From: a virus
Reading direction: 5' to 3' (one strand)
IMG/VR virus record: IMGVR_UViG_3300010389_000003
Location: 39,984-103,983 of that record
DNA: 64,000 bases
Shown here: one piece after another, positions 662-41,500 of the stretch
Position numbering within the stretch: position 1 is the stretch's first letter
Layout: each line of letters opens with the position of its first letter
Translations under genes and position numbers: made by a program
Notes under the pieces: generated by a model
The model's input: the letters and a program-made list of their open reading frames with translations, nothing else
What the model was told of the DNA's origin: nothing
The model's database searches: none

Positions 662-3600
662 ATGGAGAATTTCGTAGACAGAACTACAGCAGGCAATGAG
701 CGAGCCTTCCGAAGGGGAAAGCGAGTTCCCGATGGGGACGTTAACCTTGCATGGGTCAAATCGCCTGAGCTTACGCCAGACAATAACATAGTCATTCTGG
801 ATACGTCCCGCACCACAGAAGAAAACAGGGTCGATGCCCCAAAAAAGACTCAGCTCATGTATGCCAATTCACTGGGCATACTGGAGGATGAGTTCGGTAA
901 TCAAGTGATAGATGACGAATATCCCTGCGTGGCTGATGTCTTTACCCAAGACGAAGACTTTCTGCTGGTTGAAGGTAGTGAGTACGAAGATGATGACACA
1001 CTCCCGTTTGTCCACATCAGCAGGTATCTCCATGCCGATTTTGTTGGGATTACTTTGGGCACAGAACTCCATACTTATTCATCGGAGTCCTTGCAAGTAG
1101 TTGATCAACAGGGTAGAAACTATGTTGACGACGCAGGTGAACCGAAATATAAGATCAAGATATCACCGGCCTACAACTCAGTCGTGGACACAGTCATAGA
1201 TCAGTCCACCGGTATCTATAGGGTTTGGGCATTCGTAGACAGCAACGCCAATGAAAGTTTGTACCTCAAGTACAACAAGGTAGAGCTTGACACTTCTGGT
1301 GAGATCCGTAATCAAAATGTCGATTACACAGAGATACTGAACCCACAACCGTACTTTACGTATGTTCCAGAAGAGAGCGACGTTGTGGATCCAGCGAATC
1401 ATCGCAAGAAGATCTATACAACTAAGCCGATCAACAAGAAGAACAAGGCTGTCGGCCAGTCCCAGAAAGATGTTGAGGGTTATAGGGTCTACGTGCCTAA
1501 GAAGGCAGTGCCTGATCCAAGGCTTTATCAACTCTTCAGGTGGAGAGTTACCTGCGATTTTGTGCAGGACTATAAAGTGCGAGCCGACAAGATTGATGAG
1601 GATACCCTAGAGCAGGTCAATGTCGGTGTCATTGTCACGAATCAGAATGATAGCAGCTATGCCGCTTATGCTCTGCACAATCTCGAGAACAGTAATTATA
1701 ACAAGTCGAACGTTAGATTTGTCAACCCCTTTGCCAGCACCACCGAGAAGCAGACTGCTGCGTACTGGGAAGTCAACTTAAGCACCATTAATACCGCAGA
1801 TCTATCAACATACGACATGCTGATACTGTCACCTGTCAATACAACATTTGATGTCTCACCGATACTTGGGAAGATAGATCATTTCGTGAACGTTGTCGGT
1901 GGCACTCTGCTCATAGATACGAACAATCAATCAATCCTCAATAACTTTGGTTTTACCTTCTCCAACACCTTCTATCCGGTTAATGGTGGTACCAAGACTA
2001 CTGGCTCATCTTCATACCCATTAAGGGGAACGACAATCTCCATCGAGGACTCGACACATGAGATCATAGATGGACTCACGAGCCTTGGTGGCTGGCCTAT
2101 TACTGATGGTTCCAGCGATAATTTTGAATCAGTTTCTTTGTATTCAAACGGAGTTTTGGGTGAATACATTCAGTCTATAGAATCCTACCCAAGCGACTAT
2201 GATGAAATTTTGACGGGAACAACCACTAATGGAGCTACCAAGCCTGTTCTGGTTGGGAAAACAGCCATAGCAGATTCTGGTAGCAGAAAGGGGAAGGTTT
2301 ATGTATGCACCTCAGGGTTGACATACTCCGTCAATGCCTTTGTGGATCCGGATACTGGCAAATTGAAGTACGCCAACTATGGCAGAGACAATGTTATCAA
2401 TACGGCTGATTACGATTCATATATTAACTCTGTTTATTCGGCCACTGCTGCGAAGATGCTATACAACATGGCTTTGTTCTCCACTAAAGGCAAATACATT
2501 AATGTAGATCTTACCGGAGATTACAGTTCGGTATGGACCGTGAATTCCAATTGGGCTTCAAGTTGGGTTATCGACGGATCAGTGCTGACTGACTACGAAA
2601 AAGGAACCAACGATTTTGTCTTCCTTCCAAAGAACCCTGTTGGGGATACCGATACGGTATGGCAGAGGCGCTTGGGCACGAAAAATCTAAAACAAATGAT
2701 TGATGAGCAGCTTGTCGATTCACAACTTACTCGACTTGATAATGCAACTCGTGTTTACAGGATAGAAACAACTAATGCAGCTGTTAACACGCCTGTAACC
2801 CTTTCAGATAATACGATACCTCATGCCTGGACCGAGTCTTACAGTCCAGTATTCAATGTTCCCATTGAACTCGGCGCCCATATTGTGAGATCCGAATTGA
2901 TCCAAGGCGATTTCGATGCGGGCACCTATGTGCACAAGTCTTACCCGAGCAGAAATTACGATCTTCAAACTCAGATAACTCACACTTATGAATCCGATGC
3001 TTTCGTAAATCAGACAACTACATGGACCGCTACTGGTACGGCCACAAAGACAACAACATACAAAGGTACGACAAAGGTATCAGAGCCTGTTACCACGACG
3101 AGTACCAGAACAATAACGCGAGATGAAGAGATAACCTGGGCTGATTCAGGCTATGGCACCTATAGTGCAATGCCATCTTCCATCCCGTGGGGAACGGCTC
3201 AAAGGCCCAACGGTATTACTACTTGGCAGGAGCAGAATTATTTCACAACAGCGTGGGGTTCCGGCCTCAATAGCTGGCCCTACTGGGGCATGACGTCTAG
3301 ATACAGCACGGGTGAAAATGCAAGGGGAGAGGTTGTTCAGTTTATCCAAGCTGCACTAAATCAGTTTATCTTCTGGGGGATTGTCAATGTACCGTTCCTG
3401 CCCGAGGATGGCTCGTTCGGCTCTAGAACTGCGGCGGCAGTGAGAGCATTACAAGTAGCTAGAAATGCCAAGTACGTGGACGGCATCGTGGGGGCCGAGA
3501 CATGGGGCATGATTGGTTTTCAGATTATTAGAATTGGTCAGTTGATTGGCGCGAACAAACTAAAAGGTCAAGCGGGCTATAAGAGATTCTTCGGTTGGCC

Positions 3601-5902
3601 GTTTGATCGTTCAGACATGTTCAATATTTCCAATGGAGACCCATCCAAATCCTTTGTAAAGAAATCGTGGGTCAGAAATGGACCGTCAACAATATGGGAT
3701 ATGTTTACAGTTGTATTCCCCCTTGCGTATGACATCCATGCGGTGACGGTGATACCTTATGTGGAAGGGGCATCAAATAGTTGCATGGTTAGATCCCTGC
3801 ACACATCTCCTAATATCATCGACCTTACAAATTGGGATTCTAGAAACAGTCGTTATACATACCTTCCTTTCAGGCCTAAAGACGGTCAGGAATTGACTAT
3901 ACCAATCAGCGCACAGAGTGGACGTCAGATCATAGTCGGTATGGGACAGGATCAGTCTTCTGGTTTCGGTGCCGCTAGGATCTTTGGAGTCAGAGATATA
4001 AGGGCTCATGTCAAGACAAAGAAGACCATCACAGACACAAAGACCATACCGGGTGGAACCACATTCACTCCAGGTAAGCGAGAGGTCGAGAATATCACCT
4101 TTATTCAGACCGGAACTGTGACCGTTAATGCTAACGGGTCCAAGACGGTAACAATCAATGCGCTTGATTCAAATGTCTTGCAGCCTAGTGGCTCCATACA
4201 GAGTGCGAACGTGGACCATATCCACTTCAATAATGTGCGATTCACGGGTATAACATCCTCGAACCCAAATGTGACCGCCGAGTTTGATATCACTGGCGCC
4301 AATGCCAAGATGGTCTTTTCTACGAACTACGAAAAGAATAGTTCATCCACAAACATCCAATATGGACAGCGACTACCTGCACCTAATGGTGGATTCACAT
4401 ACTATTCAAGAACAGCTTCAGGATTTGTGAATTCAGCTCCGGAGTCGGGATGGGTTTCGAAAGAGGACGGAGTCAAGCTTCTTTGCGATTCGGCGGGTAA
4501 GCCCCTTGGATTTCCGGCATTACCCACAGGAATCAATACCGCTCAAGGTGAAACAAGCGCCTTCATAACAATGATCAGCAGGGGCACCGATCCCAGCGTT
4601 GTATATGGCTTCTATGACGCTTCGTCTAAGGAATTCATAACGTCGGGAAGTGGCGGCCAACAGGTCTTGTCCTACGAAGATTATGCTAACCGTGGATTCG
4701 GCAATGTTTTCATTGCGGTAGTTACTTCATATGAGGTCGAAGAGAATAAGGATCTGCCGGACTCATCCGACGCACCATTGATCCCCAGGTTGTGGGCAAT
4801 GCCAGTCTACGGCATATGCTATCGATCCAATTCCAGAATCGGTATAGACCCACTACCTGTTGGTCTTGGGCCCATGGACTTGTGGTCCATACCAATCAGG
4901 GTTGGATCTTTTGACAAGAACATATTCATACAGGATAGATTCTCCGTCAGCTCAACACACTGGTCGCAATCCTATGAAGGCACTACACTTAGAGCTTTTT
5001 ATGGAGTACCCGAGGCGGCTAATGGAGCATGGTCATCACTCTATGGTCGTCCGAATGTGGATATCCAAGACGAAATACCGGATGTCTTGTCGGACAGGGT
5101 GATTCAAGTTCGTCAGGCACCCATCCTCATGGTCAGGGAACCAACTGAACAAAATACCTGGGCCGATCCACTGAGACCCATCTTTACGGTTTCCACCAGA
5201 GCTACAGTGAACAGCCCCTGGGTTACTTTGGGTAGAGAAGAAATCCTCGACTACAATGTATCAAATGGTACCATATACCTTAAGGATTCATTAGCATCTG
5301 AAGACGCAAATCTTGTGAAGGTCAGCTACACATCTTCTAGGATGGTCTATGATTTCAAGCAGTATGCTGGGAACAAGATAAACCTCAATCCCTATATATT
5401 GCGAGATGAATCGCTGATTGGTAAGCCGATCTATATCTACGTTGTGCCAGAGTACGTACACACAGAATCTGGCAGCCTTATCGCTGAGTCGGTCGAAACT
5501 GCTACCATACGTTGGACGACGGATCCGGGTGTTTTCTCGGTATTGGACTCTGCCATGTACAATCCTTTAGCTATAAGACTAGGGGTTGTGTACATAAGCA
5601 GTGCAGCGGACATAGAGAATCTTACAATGCTGGACACTCGCCATCGCGGCGGAGGTGCTTCAGAGAATGTTTCTGATGGAGAACTTATCGGTAAGCATGT
5701 CATACCTAGAAATTACTGGGATGTGAACTATGCCGCTGGCGAAGCATATCAATCTGGTGGGTTTGTTCTCATCAGGCTCCCGGCCGAGTTGAAATCACGA
5801 TTCAATGACGATGACAGGTTTATAATGGAAGTCATTGATCGTAACATACCAGCTGGTGTAGGATATAAGATAGAGGATCTCAACGGAAACTCTTGGAGAT
5901 AG
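662..5902 (+). CDS. Very large virion protein (1746 aa) with an internal peptidoglycan-binding-like module
   Basis: Probably a tail, baseplate or fibre protein. Residues about 385-560 contain an alternating strand/helix segment (YDMLILSP, GGTLLIDT) that could be a Rossmann or class-I-amidotransferase-like domain. Residues about 880-950 match the PG_binding_1 pattern, with the hallmarks DGSFGSRTAAAVRALQ and VDGIVGAETW. Further beta-rich regions follow, including FGVRDIRAHVKT near residue 1113, which resembles a motif in the four following proteins. It starts with ATG immediately after the upstream stop and is two bases from the next ATG. A wall-binding module inside a tail protein suggests contact with peptidoglycan at adsorption or DNA entry; that is inference. 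No enzymatic wall-cleaving domain was recognised. Confidence 0.85.
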   Translation: MENFVDRTTAGNERAFRRGKRVPDGDVNLAWVKSPELTPDNNIVILDTSRTTEENRVDAPKKTQLMYANSLGILEDEFGNQVIDDEYPCVADVFTQDEDFLLVEGSEYEDDDTLPFVHISRYLHADFVGITLGTELHTYSSESLQVVDQQGRNYVDDAGEPKYKIKISPAYNSVVDTVIDQSTGIYRVWAFVDSNANESLYLKYNKVELDTSGEIRNQNVDYTEILNPQPYFTYVPEESDVVDPANHRKKIYTTKPINKKNKAVGQSQKDVEGYRVYVPKKAVPDPRLYQLFRWRVTCDFVQDYKVRADKIDEDTLEQVNVGVIVTNQNDSSYAAYALHNLENSNYNKSNVRFVNPFASTTEKQTAAYWEVNLSTINTADLSTYDMLILSPVNTTFDVSPILGKIDHFVNVVGGTLLIDTNNQSILNNFGFTFSNTFYPVNGGTKTTGSSSYPLRGTTISIEDSTHEIIDGLTSLGGWPITDGSSDNFESVSLYSNGVLGEYIQSIESYPSDYDEILTGTTTNGATKPVLVGKTAIADSGSRKGKVYVCTSGLTYSVNAFVDPDTGKLKYANYGRDNVINTADYDSYINSVYSATAAKMLYNMALFSTKGKYINVDLTGDYSSVWTVNSNWASSWVIDGSVLTDYEKGTNDFVFLPKNPVGDTDTVWQRRLGTKNLKQMIDEQLVDSQLTRLDNATRVYRIETTNAAVNTPVTLSDNTIPHAWTESYSPVFNVPIELGAHIVRSELIQGDFDAGTYVHKSYPSRNYDLQTQITHTYESDAFVNQTTTWTATGTATKTTTYKGTTKVSEPVTTTSTRTITRDEEITWADSGYGTYSAMPSSIPWGTAQRPNGITTWQEQNYFTTAWGSGLNSWPYWGMTSRYSTGENARGEVVQFIQAALNQFIFWGIVNVPFLPEDGSFGSRTAAAVRALQVARNAKYVDGIVGAETWGMIGFQIIRIGQLIGANKLKGQAGYKRFFGWPFDRSDMFNISNGDPSKSFVKKSWVRNGPSTIWDMFTVVFPLAYDIHAVTVIPYVEGASNSCMVRSLHTSPNIIDLTNWDSRNSRYTYLPFRPKDGQELTIPISAQSGRQIIVGMGQDQSSGFGAARIFGVRDIRAHVKTKKTITDTKTIPGGTTFTPGKREVENITFIQTGTVTVNANGSKTVTINALDSNVLQPSGSIQSANVDHIHFNNVRFTGITSSNPNVTAEFDITGANAKMVFSTNYEKNSSSTNIQYGQRLPAPNGGFTYYSRTASGFVNSAPESGWVSKEDGVKLLCDSAGKPLGFPALPTGINTAQGETSAFITMISRGTDPSVVYGFYDASSKEFITSGSGGQQVLSYEDYANRGFGNVFIAVVTSYEVEENKDLPDSSDAPLIPRLWAMPVYGICYRSNSRIGIDPLPVGLGPMDLWSIPIRVGSFDKNIFIQDRFSVSSTHWSQSYEGTTLRAFYGVPEAANGAWSSLYGRPNVDIQDEIPDVLSDRVIQVRQAPILMVREPTEQNTWADPLRPIFTVSTRATVNSPWVTLGREEILDYNVSNGTIYLKDSLASEDANLVKVSYTSSRMVYDFKQYAGNKINLNPYILRDESLIGKPIYIYVVPEYVHTESGSLIAESVETATIRWTTDPGVFSVLDSAMYNPLAIRLGVVYISSAADIENLTMLDTRHRGGGASENVSDGELIGKHVIPRNYWDVNYAAGEAYQSGGFVLIRLPAELKSRFNDDDRFIMEVIDRNIPAGVGYKIEDLNGNSWR

Positions 5903-35415: not shown

Positions 35416-35564
35416 AGCGCAAATGGTTGATAGACAACTTCGATTCTATCTTAGGTGAGATGGAGTACCATAGGGAACACAGTAAGATGTTGAAGCTCAA
35501 ACGTGTTGTCTTGTGGAAACTGAACGATAAAGAGGGAAAGGCGAAACTTGAGACTTCCAAATGA
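35403..35564 (+). CDS. Small basic helical protein (53 aa)
   Basis: ATG 35403, stop TGA at 35562-35564, overlapping both the preceding gene and the primase start. Charged and helical (FDSILGEMEYHREHSKMLKL). No family recognised; may simply couple translation to the primase. Confidence 0.55.
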   Translation: MGILERKWLIDNFDSILGEMEYHREHSKMLKLKRVVLWKLNDKEGKAKLETSK

Positions 35565-36765
35565 TAAATCCAAATACAGCAACAATTGGAAGTGGGTTGA
35601 GCTGGGTAGATATGATTCGAATGAAGATAGGGTATTCAGAATCACAGACCAGAAGACAAAGCGACCTATCACTGTTGAGTACCCTGAAGCGGAAAGCTTT
35701 GCTGACAAGCATCAAAGAAATGGAATCTATACCTCCGTATTCCATTACAACAATCCCGACTATGAAAAAGCAACCCGTCTTGGATCTCTGTACTTCGACC
35801 TTGACCATACAGATACAGAAAGATCTCTCAAAGATGCACAAACGTTGGCGGGATACCTATCAGAGTTCCTCGATGAGAGTCAGATAAGAATCTATTTTAC
35901 GGGCATGAAAGGGTTTCACATTGAGTGTGAAGCTTTAGCTATCGGTGTCGTGCCCAGTAACGATCTCCCTTCTATCTTTAGACTTATAGCCAATGACCTC
36001 AAGGATAAACTGGCATTGGAGACCATAGATTTTGCCGTCTATGATGTGCGTCGTATGTGGCGCCTACCCAATACCCGTCATCAAAAGACTGGCCTATATA
36101 AGGTTCATCTTTCCATCGATGACTTGAATTCGGGTTACGAAAACATTCTGGAAATAGCTAAAGAACCAGTAGAGTTTTATGTTCCAGAACAAGAGTTTTC
36201 CTATGCTGGTAATAGATGGTATAAGGAGTATGAGTACACATACGAGAAGTCGAAACTGAACCAGAACAATGTCGACGACATGATAGATCTGTTTCGTAAA
36301 AACGGAACCGCTGGTGTCAGAGTATCTGAACAGAAAGACTTCAACCCTGTGAATCTTTTCGATAACTGTAAGGCAATTCTAAGATTATGGGAAAAAGCAG
36401 AATCGACAGGGCATTTAGAGCATGAAGAAAGACTGTTTCTATGCAGCATTCTAACCTACACAGATGAGTCAATTGAATACCTGCATATGATTCTAGGCAA
36501 TTGTCATGATTACAATTACGAGAAGTCCTCTTCCCATATAGATGACTGGTTGGCGCGAAGAAGAATGGGTATTGGTGGAAGACCATATACCTGTCGTAGA
36601 GCCAATGAGGTGGGGGTGGGGTGCCTAGGATGTGAACTTACCCCAAAAAAGAAGTACTACAAAGTGAATGGCGTTCTTATAGAGTCTGAAGAATATAGTG
36701 ACCCATCTCCAATTAGATTTGCATACGGTAACAATGATTATAATAACTCAAAAAATAAAAGATAG
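35548..36765 (+). CDS. DNA primase, archaeo-eukaryotic (AEP) type, with a probably replaced C-terminal tail
   Basis: 405 aa. The AEP catalytic motif is LYFDLDH (D84, D86). GMKGFHIECEA (motif II His, about 124) and VYDVRRMWRLPNTRH follow. The helical C-terminal domain ends in a cysteine-rich part (TCRRANEVGVGCLGCEL). The start is the TTG at 35548, with AAAGAGGGAAAGGCG upstream and no ATG before the domain. The last 48 residues, from VGC at 36616, have a second homologous copy at 37471-37608. The 3' end overlaps a homing endonuclease gene, so this tail was probably brought in with the endonuclease. Confidence 0.87.
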   Translation: MRLPNDKSKYSNNWKWVELGRYDSNEDRVFRITDQKTKRPITVEYPEAESFADKHQRNGIYTSVFHYNNPDYEKATRLGSLYFDLDHTDTERSLKDAQTLAGYLSEFLDESQIRIYFTGMKGFHIECEALAIGVVPSNDLPSIFRLIANDLKDKLALETIDFAVYDVRRMWRLPNTRHQKTGLYKVHLSIDDLNSGYENILEIAKEPVEFYVPEQEFSYAGNRWYKEYEYTYEKSKLNQNNVDDMIDLFRKNGTAGVRVSEQKDFNPVNLFDNCKAILRLWEKAESTGHLEHEERLFLCSILTYTDESIEYLHMILGNCHDYNYEKSSSHIDDWLARRRMGIGGRPYTCRRANEVGVGCLGCELTPKKKYYKVNGVLIESEEYSDPSPIRFAYGNNDYNNSKNKR

Positions 36766-37468
36766 ATTTGAATCTAATTTAGATAAAACAGATACGTGTT
36801 GGATATGGCAACGTGCATGCAATACTGTCACCGGATATGCTGTTGTTAGTATTGAAAAAAAACAATATCAGGCACGCGATGTTGCGTATCATATATGGAA
36901 GAATGGTCTTCAAAGTTTTGAAACAACAAAGCTTGAGTGCGGTAATAGACGATGTGTTAATCCTGATCATATGAGTATTGTTTTAAAGAGAGGATCTAAA
37001 AACAAAAACAGAAAATTAGGAGAAGATAAATGGTGTCCTAGCTGTGATACATTTTTGCCCGTACAAAACTTCTCTGAGGATTCTCATAAGGCGGATGGGC
37101 TAAGGGTTTACTGTAAGGCCTGTAATGTCTTACGAGTTCAGAACTATCAATACGACAATGCACATTATAAAATGAGGTCTCGTGATAGTTATTTAAAATC
37201 AAAATATAATATCGGCTTAGAGCAATATAATAAGATACTAGATTCACAGAATGACACATGCGCCATATGTCAAAAGCCTGAACAGTGGACAAAGAGTTTG
37301 TGTGTAGACCATGATCACACATGCTGTGGGGGGTCCGGATCATGTGGGAATTGTATTAGGGGACTGCTTTGCTCTCGGTGTAATACTGTTTTGGGTCAAG
37401 TAGAAGATAATATCGATATTTTTATTTTTATGATTGAATATATACAAAAACACAAATTAAATAAATAA
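36734..37468 (+). CDS. Mobile endonuclease: HNH_3 domain fused to endonuclease VII domain
   Basis: ATG 36734 (MIIITQKIKD) lies inside the primase 3' end. Residues about 15-85 resemble the I-HmuI-type HNH_3 domain (TCWIWQRACNTVTGYAVV, CVNPDHMSIV). A CPSC ... CKAC zinc knuckle lies in the middle. Residues about 150-235 match recombination endonuclease VII (LKSKYNIGLEQYNKILDSQ, CAICQKP, LCVDHDHTCC, IRGLLCSRCNTVLG). The gene is AT-rich compared with its neighbours, as expected for a mobile gene. It probably cuts primase alleles that lack it. Confidence 0.87.
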   Translation: MIIITQKIKDRFESNLDKTDTCWIWQRACNTVTGYAVVSIEKKQYQARDVAYHIWKNGLQSFETTKLECGNRRCVNPDHMSIVLKRGSKNKNRKLGEDKWCPSCDTFLPVQNFSEDSHKADGLRVYCKACNVLRVQNYQYDNAHYKMRSRDSYLKSKYNIGLEQYNKILDSQNDTCAICQKPEQWTKSLCVDHDHTCCGGSGSCGNCIRGLLCSRCNTVLGQVEDNIDIFIFMIEYIQKHKLNK

Positions 37469-37470
37469 GT

Positions 37471-37608
37471 GTGGGATGCGGCGATTGCAGTCTTGAACCT
37501 AAGAAAAAATGGGTAAAAGTAGGCGACATGTATGTCGAGTCAGATGAATTTACTGACCCTTCACCTATAAGGTTCGCATATGGTGGCGTTACTAGTAATA
37601 ACGAATAG
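37471..37608 (+). pseudogene. Displaced original 3' end of the primase gene
   Basis: The 45 codons from GTG 37471 to TAG 37606-37608 encode VGCGDCSLEPKKKW..., ending in DPSPIRFAYG and a short tail. They align with the primase tail starting at 36616: 24 of the first 38 residues are identical by direct count. It is in the same reading frame as the primase; removing the 855 bp between the two VGC positions would restore an uninterrupted primase gene. It has no convincing start of its own, so it is read as a remnant. Confidence 0.82.
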
Positions 37609-37626
37609 TATTATTAGGAGGCTATT

Positions 37627-37746
37627 ATGGCTAAAAAGACTGGTGTTTACGCCGGTGTCAAAACCGCAAAGCCAAATTTCGTCAGCGGAGACAAATCGGG
37701 CTCCGTGAAACAGCGCACGGCTAAAGGCCCAATGAAGGGCAAGTAA
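37627..37746 (+). CDS. Small basic protein (39 aa)
   Basis: ATG with TTAGGAGGCTATT upstream, an almost ideal ribosome binding site. Lys/Gly-rich (KKTGVYAGVKTAK, GSVKQRTAKGPMKGK). One of a series of tiny basic proteins here and at 53826 that may bind nucleic acid. Ends two bases before the next ATG. Confidence 0.65.
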   Translation: MAKKTGVYAGVKTAKPNFVSGDKSGSVKQRTAKGPMKGK

Positions 37747-37748
37747 TC

Positions 37749-37808
37749 ATGTCTTATGCACCTTCGCGCAAAGTAAAAAAGAAGAAGAAAAAAGGGGATA
37801 AAAAATGA
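37749..37808 (+). CDS. Lysine-rich micro-protein (19 aa)
   Basis: ATG 37749 to TGA 37808: SYAPSRKVKKKKKKGDKK. The stop overlaps the next ATG (AAAATGACC). Its short length makes it uncertain; the tight packing with flanking basic genes is the only support. Confidence 0.4.
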   Translation: MSYAPSRKVKKKKKKGDKK

Positions 37809-37999
37809 CCATTGAGACCAGGCTCGTGACTCGCCGCGGCAAAAAGATCCAGGACAAGGGGCACGAACGTTATGCTCCGAAGTCAAGCTCAGCTAAACAA
37901 CCCGCACACGCTCCAATTCCGGAGAAGAAAGAGGCTAAGGTTGAAGCAGATACCGCTAAGGCTAAGAAGCAAACCAGCAAAAAGAAAAAAGCAGACTAA
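37805..37999 (+). CDS. Small Lys/Ala-rich protein (64 aa)
   Basis: ATG overlaps the preceding stop; AAGGGGATAAAA is the ribosome binding site. Basic N-terminus (RLVTRRGKKIQDKGHE) and a low-complexity histone-like tail (KAKKQTSKKKKAD). Possibly DNA-binding; no family recognised. Confidence 0.6.
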   Translation: MTIETRLVTRRGKKIQDKGHERYAPKSSSAKQPAHAPIPEKKEAKVEADTAKAKKQTSKKKKAD

Positions 38000-38019
38000 A
38001 GACAAAAGGGAAGTAGACT

Positions 38020-38232
38020 ATGAGTGAAGAACTAGATCATAATATTGTAGGCATGTGTACAGAATGCAAGACCACCATTCCAACGACAACCATGGCCAAG
38101 AACATTTTTGCATCGGAGGGTGCCCCTCCAGTATGTAAGTATTGCGGTGGAGTTGTTGCGGTTATTGATCGGCGTGATGAGAAGTCTGTCAAGGTTCAAA
38201 TGGACGCGGCACGCAACCTCAATAGGGGCTGA
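38020..38232 (+). CDS. Small zinc-ribbon protein (70 aa)
   Basis: ATG 38020. Two cysteine pairs, CTEC (about residue 13) and CKYCGG (about residue 38), form a likely zinc ribbon. The helical tail KVQMDAARNLNRG follows. Could be an adaptor or transcription-associated protein. Upstream of the DNA polymerase gene. Confidence 0.65.
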   Translation: MSEELDHNIVGMCTECKTTIPTTTMAKNIFASEGAPPVCKYCGGVVAVIDRRDEKSVKVQMDAARNLNRG

Positions 38233-38260
38233 GCCAGTCTAGTTCAAGGAACGGTGTGGT

Positions 38261-38554
38261 GTGGCTTTCAGCGATGAGATCTCAATGCACAATCAATCAC
38301 GGCTTGACGGTAACACGTTGATAACCACCACGCACGTATATCTAAATGGCGAATTGTATGATCCAGTTGAGGTCACATTTTCCTTACGTTATCGCGATGC
38401 CCTCACCCGAAGGACCTTCTTAACCCAAACGAAGAAAGACACTTCAGATGATGCCGTGACCAGGCTTTCTATTGGGCTATATGAGTACAGAGAGGACGTC
38501 TCCAATTACCTTACCGGTAAGTACGATGTGGTTTGTAGTGTATCCGATAGCTAA
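38261..38554 (+). CDS. Unrecognised small protein (97 aa)
   Basis: GTG start with AAGGAACG upstream. Beta-rich first half (TTTHVYLNGELYDPVEVTFS) then a helical segment. Ends just before the promoter of the polymerase gene. No family recognised. Confidence 0.6.
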   Translation: MAFSDEISMHNQSRLDGNTLITTTHVYLNGELYDPVEVTFSLRYRDALTRRTFLTQTKKDTSDDAVTRLSIGLYEYREDVSNYLTGKYDVVCSVSDS

Positions 38555-38591: not shown

Positions 38592-41500
38592 ATGGCAAAA
38601 CAATATGTAGAACTCCATTGTCATGATGTCTTCAGCTTCTTGGATGGGCATGGCAAGGTAGAGGAATATAGTCGTCGCGCTAAAGAACTCAATATGGGAG
38701 CCATAGCGCAGACAAATCATGGAAATATCCATGGATGGATGGACTTCTATGATAGCTGCAAGAAGCACGACCTAAAACCCATCTTCGGCCTTGAAGCATA
38801 CCAGGCCCGTAAGAGTCGATTCGATAAAGATGATGACGAGCGTGCTGGCCCCGCAAGAAATGAGTGGGATCAGCGTGGGCCGTACCACATAACCCTCTTG
38901 GCTAAGAACAAGACGGGTTATCATAACCTCATCAAGCTGTCCTCCCGTGCCTATACCGAGGGCTTCTATGTCAAGCCACGCATGGATCACGAATTGATCT
39001 CAGAGCATTCAGAAGGGCTTATAGTGATGTCTGGCTGCCTCAATGGGGAAGTGCAACAGGCGATCCTGCGCAACGATTACAAATCAGCCTTAATCGCTGC
39101 CGCCAGCATGCAAACGATTGTGGGCAAAGAAAACTACTTTATCGAAGTGCATGATCATGGGATTGAAGAAGAGCGCGCGGTCAGAGAGGCCCTTATTAGA
39201 ATAGCTAAGACAATTGATGCCCCTATTGTCCCCGTGGGTGATTGTCACTATGTATACAAGGACGATCACGACGCACACGATTCCATGTTATGCGTTTCAA
39301 CTAAGGCTCAGATCTCCTCAGAAGAACGTTTCAAGTTCTCCGGTCCCGAATTTTATCTAAAGTCCTACGAAGAAGTGGTAGAAAAGTTCGATCCAGATTG
39401 GGTCAAGAATACACTGCATGTAGCAGATATGGTTGATGTAAAGCTTGAATTTGGCGAATATCATTTCCCTCAGGCTCAAAACATTCCAGAAAACATTTCC
39501 GTTGATGAGCACCTAGAGACCCTCATGTGGGATGGTTTGCGGGAAAGATACGGAGATCCACTCCCTCAAGAGGTTATAGATCGTGCTTCTCACGAGCTGG
39601 GCGTGGTCAAAAGAATGGGTTTCCAGGAGTATTTCCTGGTCGTTTCCGACATAGTACAAGAGGCCAAGCGTAGAGGGATAGCGGTCGGCCCAGGAAGAGG
39701 TTCCGGTGCCGCCTGTATCATATCCTATGCATTGCGCATCACAAACCTGTGCCCGATTGAGTATGATCTTCTCTTTGAGCGCTTCTTGATTGAGGGGCGA
39801 AAGACCGTACCCGACTTCGATATCGACTTCGACGATCGCTACAGAGATGAGATCATTGAGTATTGTCGTGAGAAGTATGGAAGTGATCATGTTGCCCATA
39901 TTGCTACTTTCGCCCAAGTAAAAGCTGCATCTGCCATTAAGGACGCCGCCCGTGTGCTCGGTCACGAGTACGAAGTTGGGGATCGTATAGCGAAGATGAT
40001 ACCTGATGCCGTCTTAGGTGTGACCAAGTCCCTTGAAGAATGCATGAAGCTGGAAGATATCAAGAAGGTCTACGAGACCGATGATGATGTCAAAGAGATC
40101 CTGGATGTTGCGATAGGCCTTGAGGGCGTTTACAGACAGCCGGGCATGCACGCCGCTGGTGTAGTGATCACTCGTGGCCCCGTAACAGACTATGTCCCCA
40201 CAATGCAGAAGGGTGCTGATAAGCCACTGATTATACAGTGGGATGGTGACAATGTAGAACGGAACGGTCTTCTGAAGATAGACTTCTTAGGCTTGCGGAA
40301 CCTCGGTGTCATAGACCTGTGTGTCAAGCAGGTCAAGGTGCGTCATGGTGTAGATTTAGACATAGATAATATACCGCTTAATGATGAGCAGGTATTTGAG
40401 AACCTTAGACAAGGTAAGTCTATAGGCTGCTTCCAGATAGAGGGCGAGGGTATGCGTCAGATGATGATGGACCTTCAGCCTGAAAGCATCTTGGATATCT
40501 TTGCTCTGATATCACTGTATCGTCCCGGGCCAATGGGTTCCGGTATGGATAAGATGTATATCAATCGTAAGCATGGTCGAGAGAAGGTATCGTATCCACA
40601 CGAATCATTGAGACCGGTCCTCGAAAAGTCTAGGGGCATCATGCTCTACCAGGAGGACGTACTTAATGTTGCGAAAGTTGGCGCAGGGTTAGGCCCAGGC
40701 GATGCTGATGATCTCCGTCGAGTTATCGGCAAGAAGTATATGGACAAGGTGGCAGAGTATAGAAAGATATTCGTAGAGGGGGCCGTGAAAACCAATGGCA
40801 TGTCTGAAAAAATTGCCAACGATATCTTCTCTGATATCGAATACTTTGCGGGTTACGGTTTCAATAAGGCACACGCCGCTGCTTATGGGATCATTTCTTA
40901 TCAGACGGCATGGCTAAAAACACATTATCCAGTTGAGTACATGGCAGCCTTGATGTCAACAGTGACAGACAAGAAAGATAAGATGAACCTTTATCTCGCC
41001 GAATGCAAAAATATGGGTATAGAAGTATTGCCACCTTCGGTTTCAGAATCACAGTATTACTTCACGGTTAGGGACGATACTACAATACTCTTCGGATTGC
41101 TTGCGGTGGATGGTGTTGGTGAGGCTCAGATCGACCACCTTAAGAGTGGGAACGTAGACTATAGCAGCTTCTGGACATTTTTCAGAACCGCTGAATCAAG
41201 CGCATTAAACAAGAAGACCCTTCAGCAGCTTATCAATGCTGGCGGCTTCGATAACCTGGTTGATACGGACAGCTTAGTGCATAAGTCTATGTCGCGATCG
41301 GAGAAGGTCGAGATTCTGAATAGGGAGAACGCTGCTATAGGAATGTACCTGTCTGGTCACCCGCTTGAGGACATATGGCCAGTCATCAAAGATCAAGCAA
41401 CACACACCTGCGCTGAGGTTATGGAAAGCGAGGAGGGCAAGGGTTCTGCCAGAGTGGTCGGAATGATAACTGAATACAAAGAGATGACGACCAAGAAGAC

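Follow-up and report, generated by a model that had tools for sequence, protein, structure and literature searches.

The window analysed here is a stretch of 64,000 nucleotides (positions 39,984 to 103,983) of the metagenomic virus record IMGVR_UViG_3300010389_000003. The whole record spans 104 kb and carries tailed-phage genes encoding virion proteins, a ribonucleotide reductase, a DnaB-like helicase, a DnaE-type polymerase and an endolysin. The presence of lysis, replication and virion genes indicates that the element hosting the locus described below is a phage genome and not mitochondrial DNA. An ORF opening with a TTG start codon (35548-36765) encodes a small primase of the AEP type, whose AlphaFold model (pLDDT 84) has the LigD polymerase domain, PriS and Prim-PolC as its best structural matches. 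It is followed by an endonuclease gene that starts within the end of the primase ORF and, 2 nt past the endonuclease stop codon, by a second copy of the primase C-terminal tail, which is still open (Table 1). The copy fused to the primase is referred to as the upstream tail and the copy behind the endonuclease as the downstream tail.

The two tails flanking the endonuclease had been noticed in a sequence-only reading of the window, and both their positions and their relationship were confirmed. The upstream tail VGCLGCELTPKKKYYKVNGVLIESEEYSDPSPIRFAYG and the downstream tail VGCGDCSLEPKKKWVKVGDMYVESDEFTDPSPIRFAYG are identical at 24/38 residues; as that reading had also stated, they lie in the same frame, the distance between their VGC codons being 855 bp, a multiple of 3. 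The extent given for the fused copy (36616-36765) was refined. The duplicated part consists of the 38 codons VGC…FAYG at 36616-36729, followed by AACA ahead of the endonuclease ATG. This ATG is located at 36734; the 11 residues with which the primase ends (NNDYNNSKNKR) are therefore in essence the beginning of the endonuclease gene, translated in a different frame. In the downstream tail, the part shared with the upstream one covers 37471-37584. The insert is coding almost throughout, because the endonuclease start codon falls within the primase ORF and the downstream tail begins directly behind the endonuclease stop. The native part of the primase extends at least to around the GVG codons that precede VGC.

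A six-frame self-BLASTP indicated that the pair of tails is the sole same-strand protein-level duplication of its kind within the window (46 aa, 56.5%, E=2.6e-14), and a search of the whole 104-kb record recovered these two copies only. A profile built without the window from 30 distinct insert-free tails of the family matched exactly two places, the downstream tail (E 9.4e-25) and the upstream tail (E 1.3e-14), the next hit being at E 0.9. At the DNA level the two copies are 61% identical, and the invariant residues are retained in the replaced end. Very short lysine-rich ORFs (37628-37999) occur directly 3' of the downstream tail, at a position conserved in the insert-free relative L001 described below.

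Table 1. Features of the primase locus and of the five loci with a comparable layout.
Feature	Record	Coordinates	Strand	Basis
Native body of the phage AEP-type primase	window	35548..36615	+	PHROG primase families (E about 1e-31); AlphaFold folds; body tree
Upstream tail: in-frame 3' end of foreign origin that replaces the primase's own	window	36616..36733	+	L001 identity; family tail profile; invariant columns
Endonuclease gene (244 aa) with a degenerate N-terminal domain of HNH_3-like type, a zinc ribbon and an Endo VII domain at the C-terminus	window	36734..37468	+	Pfam; PHROG; structure matches; alignments
32-bp overlap between the 3' end of the hybrid primase ORF and the start of the endonuclease gene	window	36734..36765	+	ORF coordinates
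Downstream tail: stranded native 3' end of the primase, VGC…FAYGGVTSNNE, still open	window	37471..37608	+	L001 identity and synteny
L136: RuvC-like resolvase with foreign 3' end and Endo VII	IMGVR_UViG_3300004806_000634	1975-3031		Empty-site relative L328
L142: terminase, mirror case (5' end)	IMGVR_UViG_3300049017_000055	2220-4163		Empty-site relative L376
L465: DNA polymerase A 3' end duplicated around a 101-aa Endo VII endonuclease	GenBank MW202601.1, also MW202604.1	75-2312
L482: amidase 5' end	Actinomadura alba prophage	2205-3620		Survey of bacterial genomes
L472: 5' end of an unknown gene	Nitrosomonas MAG	1587-2782		Survey of bacterial genomes

The hybrid primase keeps every invariant residue

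Alignment of 24 primases revealed as invariant the cysteines C344, C354 and C357 and a terminal PSP-x-R-x-AY motif. The insertion point falls between C344 and C354. The upstream tail contributes C354 and C357, by which two of the four invariant cysteines are restored, together with the entire PSP-x-R-x-AY end, and the hybrid primase keeps every invariant residue, in agreement with the earlier proposal that the target gene had stayed whole. In the AlphaFold model this replacement end forms a beta hairpin, predicted with fair confidence (pLDDT about 71-80). The locus differs from the 'genes in pieces' produced by splitting of a target, since the hybrid primase is full length and the second piece redundant. 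The insertion would be expected to be tolerated because the upstream tail supplies the end without which the gene would be truncated within its Cys motif.

The downstream tail matches insert-free relatives

The polarity of the two tails was addressed with L001, an IMG/VR contig whose primase body is 82% identical to that of the window. L001 encodes one continuous primase, immediately followed by the small genes that also lie downstream of the window locus; the endonuclease gene is absent from this place and the flanks are syntenic, which makes it an empty-site allele. Its tail is identical to the downstream tail at 31/36 residues and to the upstream tail at 21/36, the opposite of what was expected if the sequence-only reading were wrong, namely an insert-free relative resembling the fused copy. 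Codon changes between the downstream tail and L001 are mostly synonymous (18 synonymous, 5 nonsynonymous), similar to the body, and those between the two tails are evenly divided (15 and 14, respectively). The profile of the 30 insert-free tails scored the downstream tail at 83 bits and the upstream tail at 51 bits, and more than 80 further insert-free loci of the primase family agree with L001 on the polarity. As the L001 match and the profile scores both favour the downstream tail, this copy is the native one and the upstream tail is foreign. The stranded copy is the phage's own primase end, and the fused one most likely came from elsewhere.

Separate trees were built for the body and the tail, as had been proposed. 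The body of the window primase groups with L001 (support 98/97), and the tail-only tree, with 36 columns too short for placing the donor, did not reject the two tails as sisters (p-AU 0.96), nor by itself a fast-evolving duplicate formed in situ. The upstream tail shows a similar identity to every sampled family member (16-22/36), as expected for an end from an unsampled lineage. Scans for a donor allele with 64-aa and 53-aa tail queries returned only insert-free family members, with 22/36 as the best match; among named phages only distant primases and no close relatives were found, and none of the prokaryote genomes searched contained this primase. The exact junctions and any co-conversion tract of the window locus are illegible because the closest empty-site relative is only ~75% identical in DNA.

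The insert encodes a putative DHHRN homing endonuclease

The C-terminal half of the endonuclease is an Endo VII domain (Pfam PF02945, E 4e-22; PHROG endonuclease VII) preceded by a zinc ribbon, and the protein matches T4 Endo VII (1e7d, E 4e-6) and Hpy99I. The DHHRN residues are intact (VDHDH…IRGLLCSRCN); such D, H, H, R and N catalytic residues define the F-CphI DHHRN family of homing endonucleases (PMC6083498). The N-terminal 90 residues correspond to an HNH_3-type domain (listed as 36734-37018) in which two usually conserved histidines are lost (AHR to ARD and xHxC to LEC), and which may be a retired nuclease kept for DNA binding. The G+C content of the gene is 0.35, versus 0.45 for the window. 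Judging from these features, the protein is a putative free-standing DHHRN (Endo VII) homing endonuclease, predicted to cut and to home.

The same layout is found at five other loci

Endo VII genes were surveyed with a score comparing the upstream with the downstream translations around each gene, swapped neighbours serving as control. The sample comprised about 228 Endo VII loci, 163 distinct ones of viral or phage origin and 65 from bacterial genomes; it is not random, and the fraction of cases is therefore only indicative. Clear outliers were the window, L136, L142 and L465 among the viral or phage loci, and L472 and L482 among the bacterial ones. Besides the primase, 3' ends are affected in a resolvase (L136) and a DNA polymerase (L465), and 5' ends in a terminase (L142), an amidase (L482) and an unknown gene (L472). 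Although the targets are unrelated, the six loci share one layout: the replacement end overlaps or abuts the nuclease ORF, and a native remnant lies nearby. The overlap amounts to roughly 8-32 bp in the window, L136, L142 and L482 and to a few bp in L472; in L465 the two abut.

At two of these loci empty-site relatives settle the polarity. In L136 the endonuclease ORF continues, without a change of frame, into the native resolvase end that was displaced. Its near-identical relative L328 is identical to this displaced end and to ~90 bp of downstream DNA (2953 to 3122), and about 62% identical to the fused tract (2345-2514). The fused end is closer to other family members (134/175 nt to L359/L362) than to L328 (110/168). 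The fused tract begins ~30 codons upstream of the starting point of the displaced copy, as expected if repair had co-converted sequence on the left side of a cut. In the mirror case L142, the order is a truncated native terminase 5' end, the endonuclease and a complete terminase. A single clean breakpoint divides the gene within its Walker A codons (GAA|GTGKS). The empty site L376 matches the remnant at 84/90 and the replaced end at 62/91, and over the first 30 compared codons the replaced end carries 24 synonymous changes and 1 nonsynonymous change.

For the polymerase locus L465, no close insert-free relative was found in the phage collection. The same Actinomadura genome that holds L482 contains an insert-free second prophage (L548), and this comparison gives mild support to the upstream remnant of L482 being the native copy. 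In L472 the endonuclease ORF opens with the start codons of the native gene; a genus search retrieved no relative of this target.

Other high-scoring loci were rejected. The scores of L133, L123, L130 and L400 stemmed from GC-rich spurious frames with low-complexity, antisense-like alignments. In L169, L170 and L203 the endonuclease is flanked by psbA/psbD, which are paralogous neighbours, and the tail-protein pairs of L151 and L502 were likewise paralogous neighbours; in the latter, from a Chloroflexi MAG, the Endo VII endonuclease sits between two tail-type proteins (1524-3161) that are probably tandem paralogues. No flanking gene-end duplication was found at HNH_3-type endonuclease loci (L010-L039).

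A separate observation concerns L462, the Arthrobacter phage Crewmate, where the annotated Endo VII gene (546-995) overlaps by 47 bp the start of the terminase large subunit (949-2655) and by 4 bp the end of the small subunit. No second gene end was detected in L462, which is possibly an older or resolved form of the 5'-end mirror case.

Proposed mechanism and alternative explanations

We propose that the free-standing Endo VII (DHHRN) endonuclease and a diverged copy of the 3' end of the primase gene that it targets move together as one cassette, and we put at about 85% the probability that a cassette with a replacement primase end explains the locus. During a mixed infection, the enzyme would cut an insert-free primase near the Cys-motif codons (VG|C). 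Repair of the left end of the break would use the donor allele as template and run through both the donor's primase tail and the endonuclease gene that overlaps it. Closure of the break onto what remains of the recipient's 3' end would follow, even though donor and recipient share little sequence there. The recipient's 3' end would be left stranded as an untranslated or separately translated remnant. The outcome would be one full-length hybrid primase made with no splicing, the junction being changed enough to evade recutting. The central claim of the sequence-only reading, that a mobile endonuclease brought a donor primase 3' end and pushed the recipient's end downstream, is supported by the synteny with L001, the more than 80 insert-free loci and the five further loci.

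An alternative, which we consider unlikely, is that the primase end was duplicated in situ, that the endonuclease entered between the copies and that the fused copy then diverged fast, with no foreign donor involved. The upstream tail does sit on a long branch, possibly as sister to the downstream tail in the 36-column tree, and it has two residues, P in PKKK and D in DPSP, in common with the window/L001 clade. A duplication of this kind predicts, however, that the conserved copy is the one in use, and the copy in use is the divergent one. The parallel loci also argue against it: the fused end of L136 is nearer to L359/L362 than to L328, to which its displaced end is identical, and the replaced end of L142 has changed almost only synonymously.

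Slightly less probable still is that the endonuclease is not aimed at the primase and hitch-hiked beside a divergent primase end through ordinary phage recombination, leaving the remnant by chance. Free-standing phage endonucleases usually cut far from their own insertion site (PMC2988022), and nuclease genes are located at recombination boundaries (PMC10448857). This explanation fits poorly with a single tight layout at six loci with unrelated targets and with the clean split of L142, and both ends would not remain after an ordinary exchange between flanks.

We rate as highly improbable a self-splicing intron that spans 36616-37470 and encloses the endonuclease gene, with the tails as alternative or relic 3' exons. 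Phage endonucleases are often housed in group I introns, and excision of the 855 bp between the VGC codons would give a primase with the native tail. The insert is nevertheless coding except for about 2-4 nt, which leaves no space for a ribozyme, and the parallel inserts are too short for one (that of L465 measures about 390 nt in all, of which 306 nt are the nuclease ORF). A search of 36000-38500 against Rfam with permissive filters, group I and II introns included, produced nothing at E<=5. A chimera of assembly or sequencing, conceivable in a metagenomic record, hardly deserves credit, since the two tails are too divergent in DNA for mis-joined repeats, every frame is intact and similar arrangements are present both in the genome of an isolate (Actinomadura alba, L482) and in phage records of GenBank (MW202601/MW202604).

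Relation to known systems

A cassette carrying a replacement gene end has close counterparts in fungal mitochondria, where hybrids between mobile ORFs and C-terminal gene ends are reported in atp6 of Allomyces macrogynus and in atp6, atp9, cox2 and nad3 of Glomus sp. (PMC3630166). The phage locus resembles them in having an in-frame foreign C-terminal end on a native body, with the endonuclease ORF behind it and the native end displaced downstream, and in the displaced native end being closer to the insert-free relative (L001 in our case) than the inserted end. It differs in that the genes affected in phages serve replication, packaging and lysis and are not organelle genes, and in its Endo VII (DHHRN) nuclease; the 5'-end mirror case found in phages was not seen in the available description of the mitochondrial hybrids (PMC3630166). 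From its sequence features, the phage primase locus appears to work like an Allomyces-type mitochondrial hybrid but, being part of a phage genome, is not a member of that group.

The F-CphI family (PMC6083498) shares with the window endonuclease the D, H, H, R and N residues of the Endo VII catalytic motif and the status of free-standing phage nuclease. F-CphI is not described in the account available as carrying a replacement target end, and the window endonuclease has the extra degenerate HNH_3-like N-terminal domain. The T4-type free-standing endonucleases (seg/mob) lie between genes or split their target, as for Aeh1 mobE/nrdA and T4 mobA/gene 60 (PMC2988022, PMC5009743). Like them, the present gene is intronless, lies in or beside an essential gene and has a start that overlaps the gene before it (by 32 bp, against 11-24 bp in the T4-type genes); unlike in the T4-type split genes, the primase is full length by means of the supplied end and a redundant native end is left. 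A working analogy can also be drawn with the engineered home-and-rescue (HomeR) drive, a synthetic CRISPR system in flies in which the 3' end of an essential gene has been re-coded (PMC7968924). Both combine a nuclease within an essential gene with a changed 3' end, which in the engineered drive keeps that gene functional and uncut; here the arrangement is natural, and the changed end would likewise preserve function and allow escape from cutting. No phage report of a replaced target-gene end was found in the open-access literature searched, which is weak evidence as most subscription papers lie outside it.

Significance

Homing endonucleases are usually thought to require an intron, an intein or an intergenic gap to survive in or beside an essential gene. 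The phage locus shows another route, in which the endonuclease brings along its own spare gene end. Neither an intron nor an intein would then be needed for elements with replacement ends to occupy coding sites that are highly conserved. On balance, we favour the broader view that phage Endo VII homing endonucleases include a recurrent natural home-and-rescue class, in which a divergent, cleavage-proof replacement is provided for whichever end (3' or 5') of the essential target gene the insertion severs. A strategy so far described from fungal mitochondria is extended to phages, together with a 5' mirror version. The strategy also accounts for genes with hybrid ends, by which phylogenies of primases, polymerases, resolvases and terminases would be misled. 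By analogy, the primase locus and the five further cases point to a naturally occurring equivalent of the engineered home-and-rescue gene drives; they provide a natural precedent for re-coded rescue drives, for which the frequency and the target genes of origin can now be asked.
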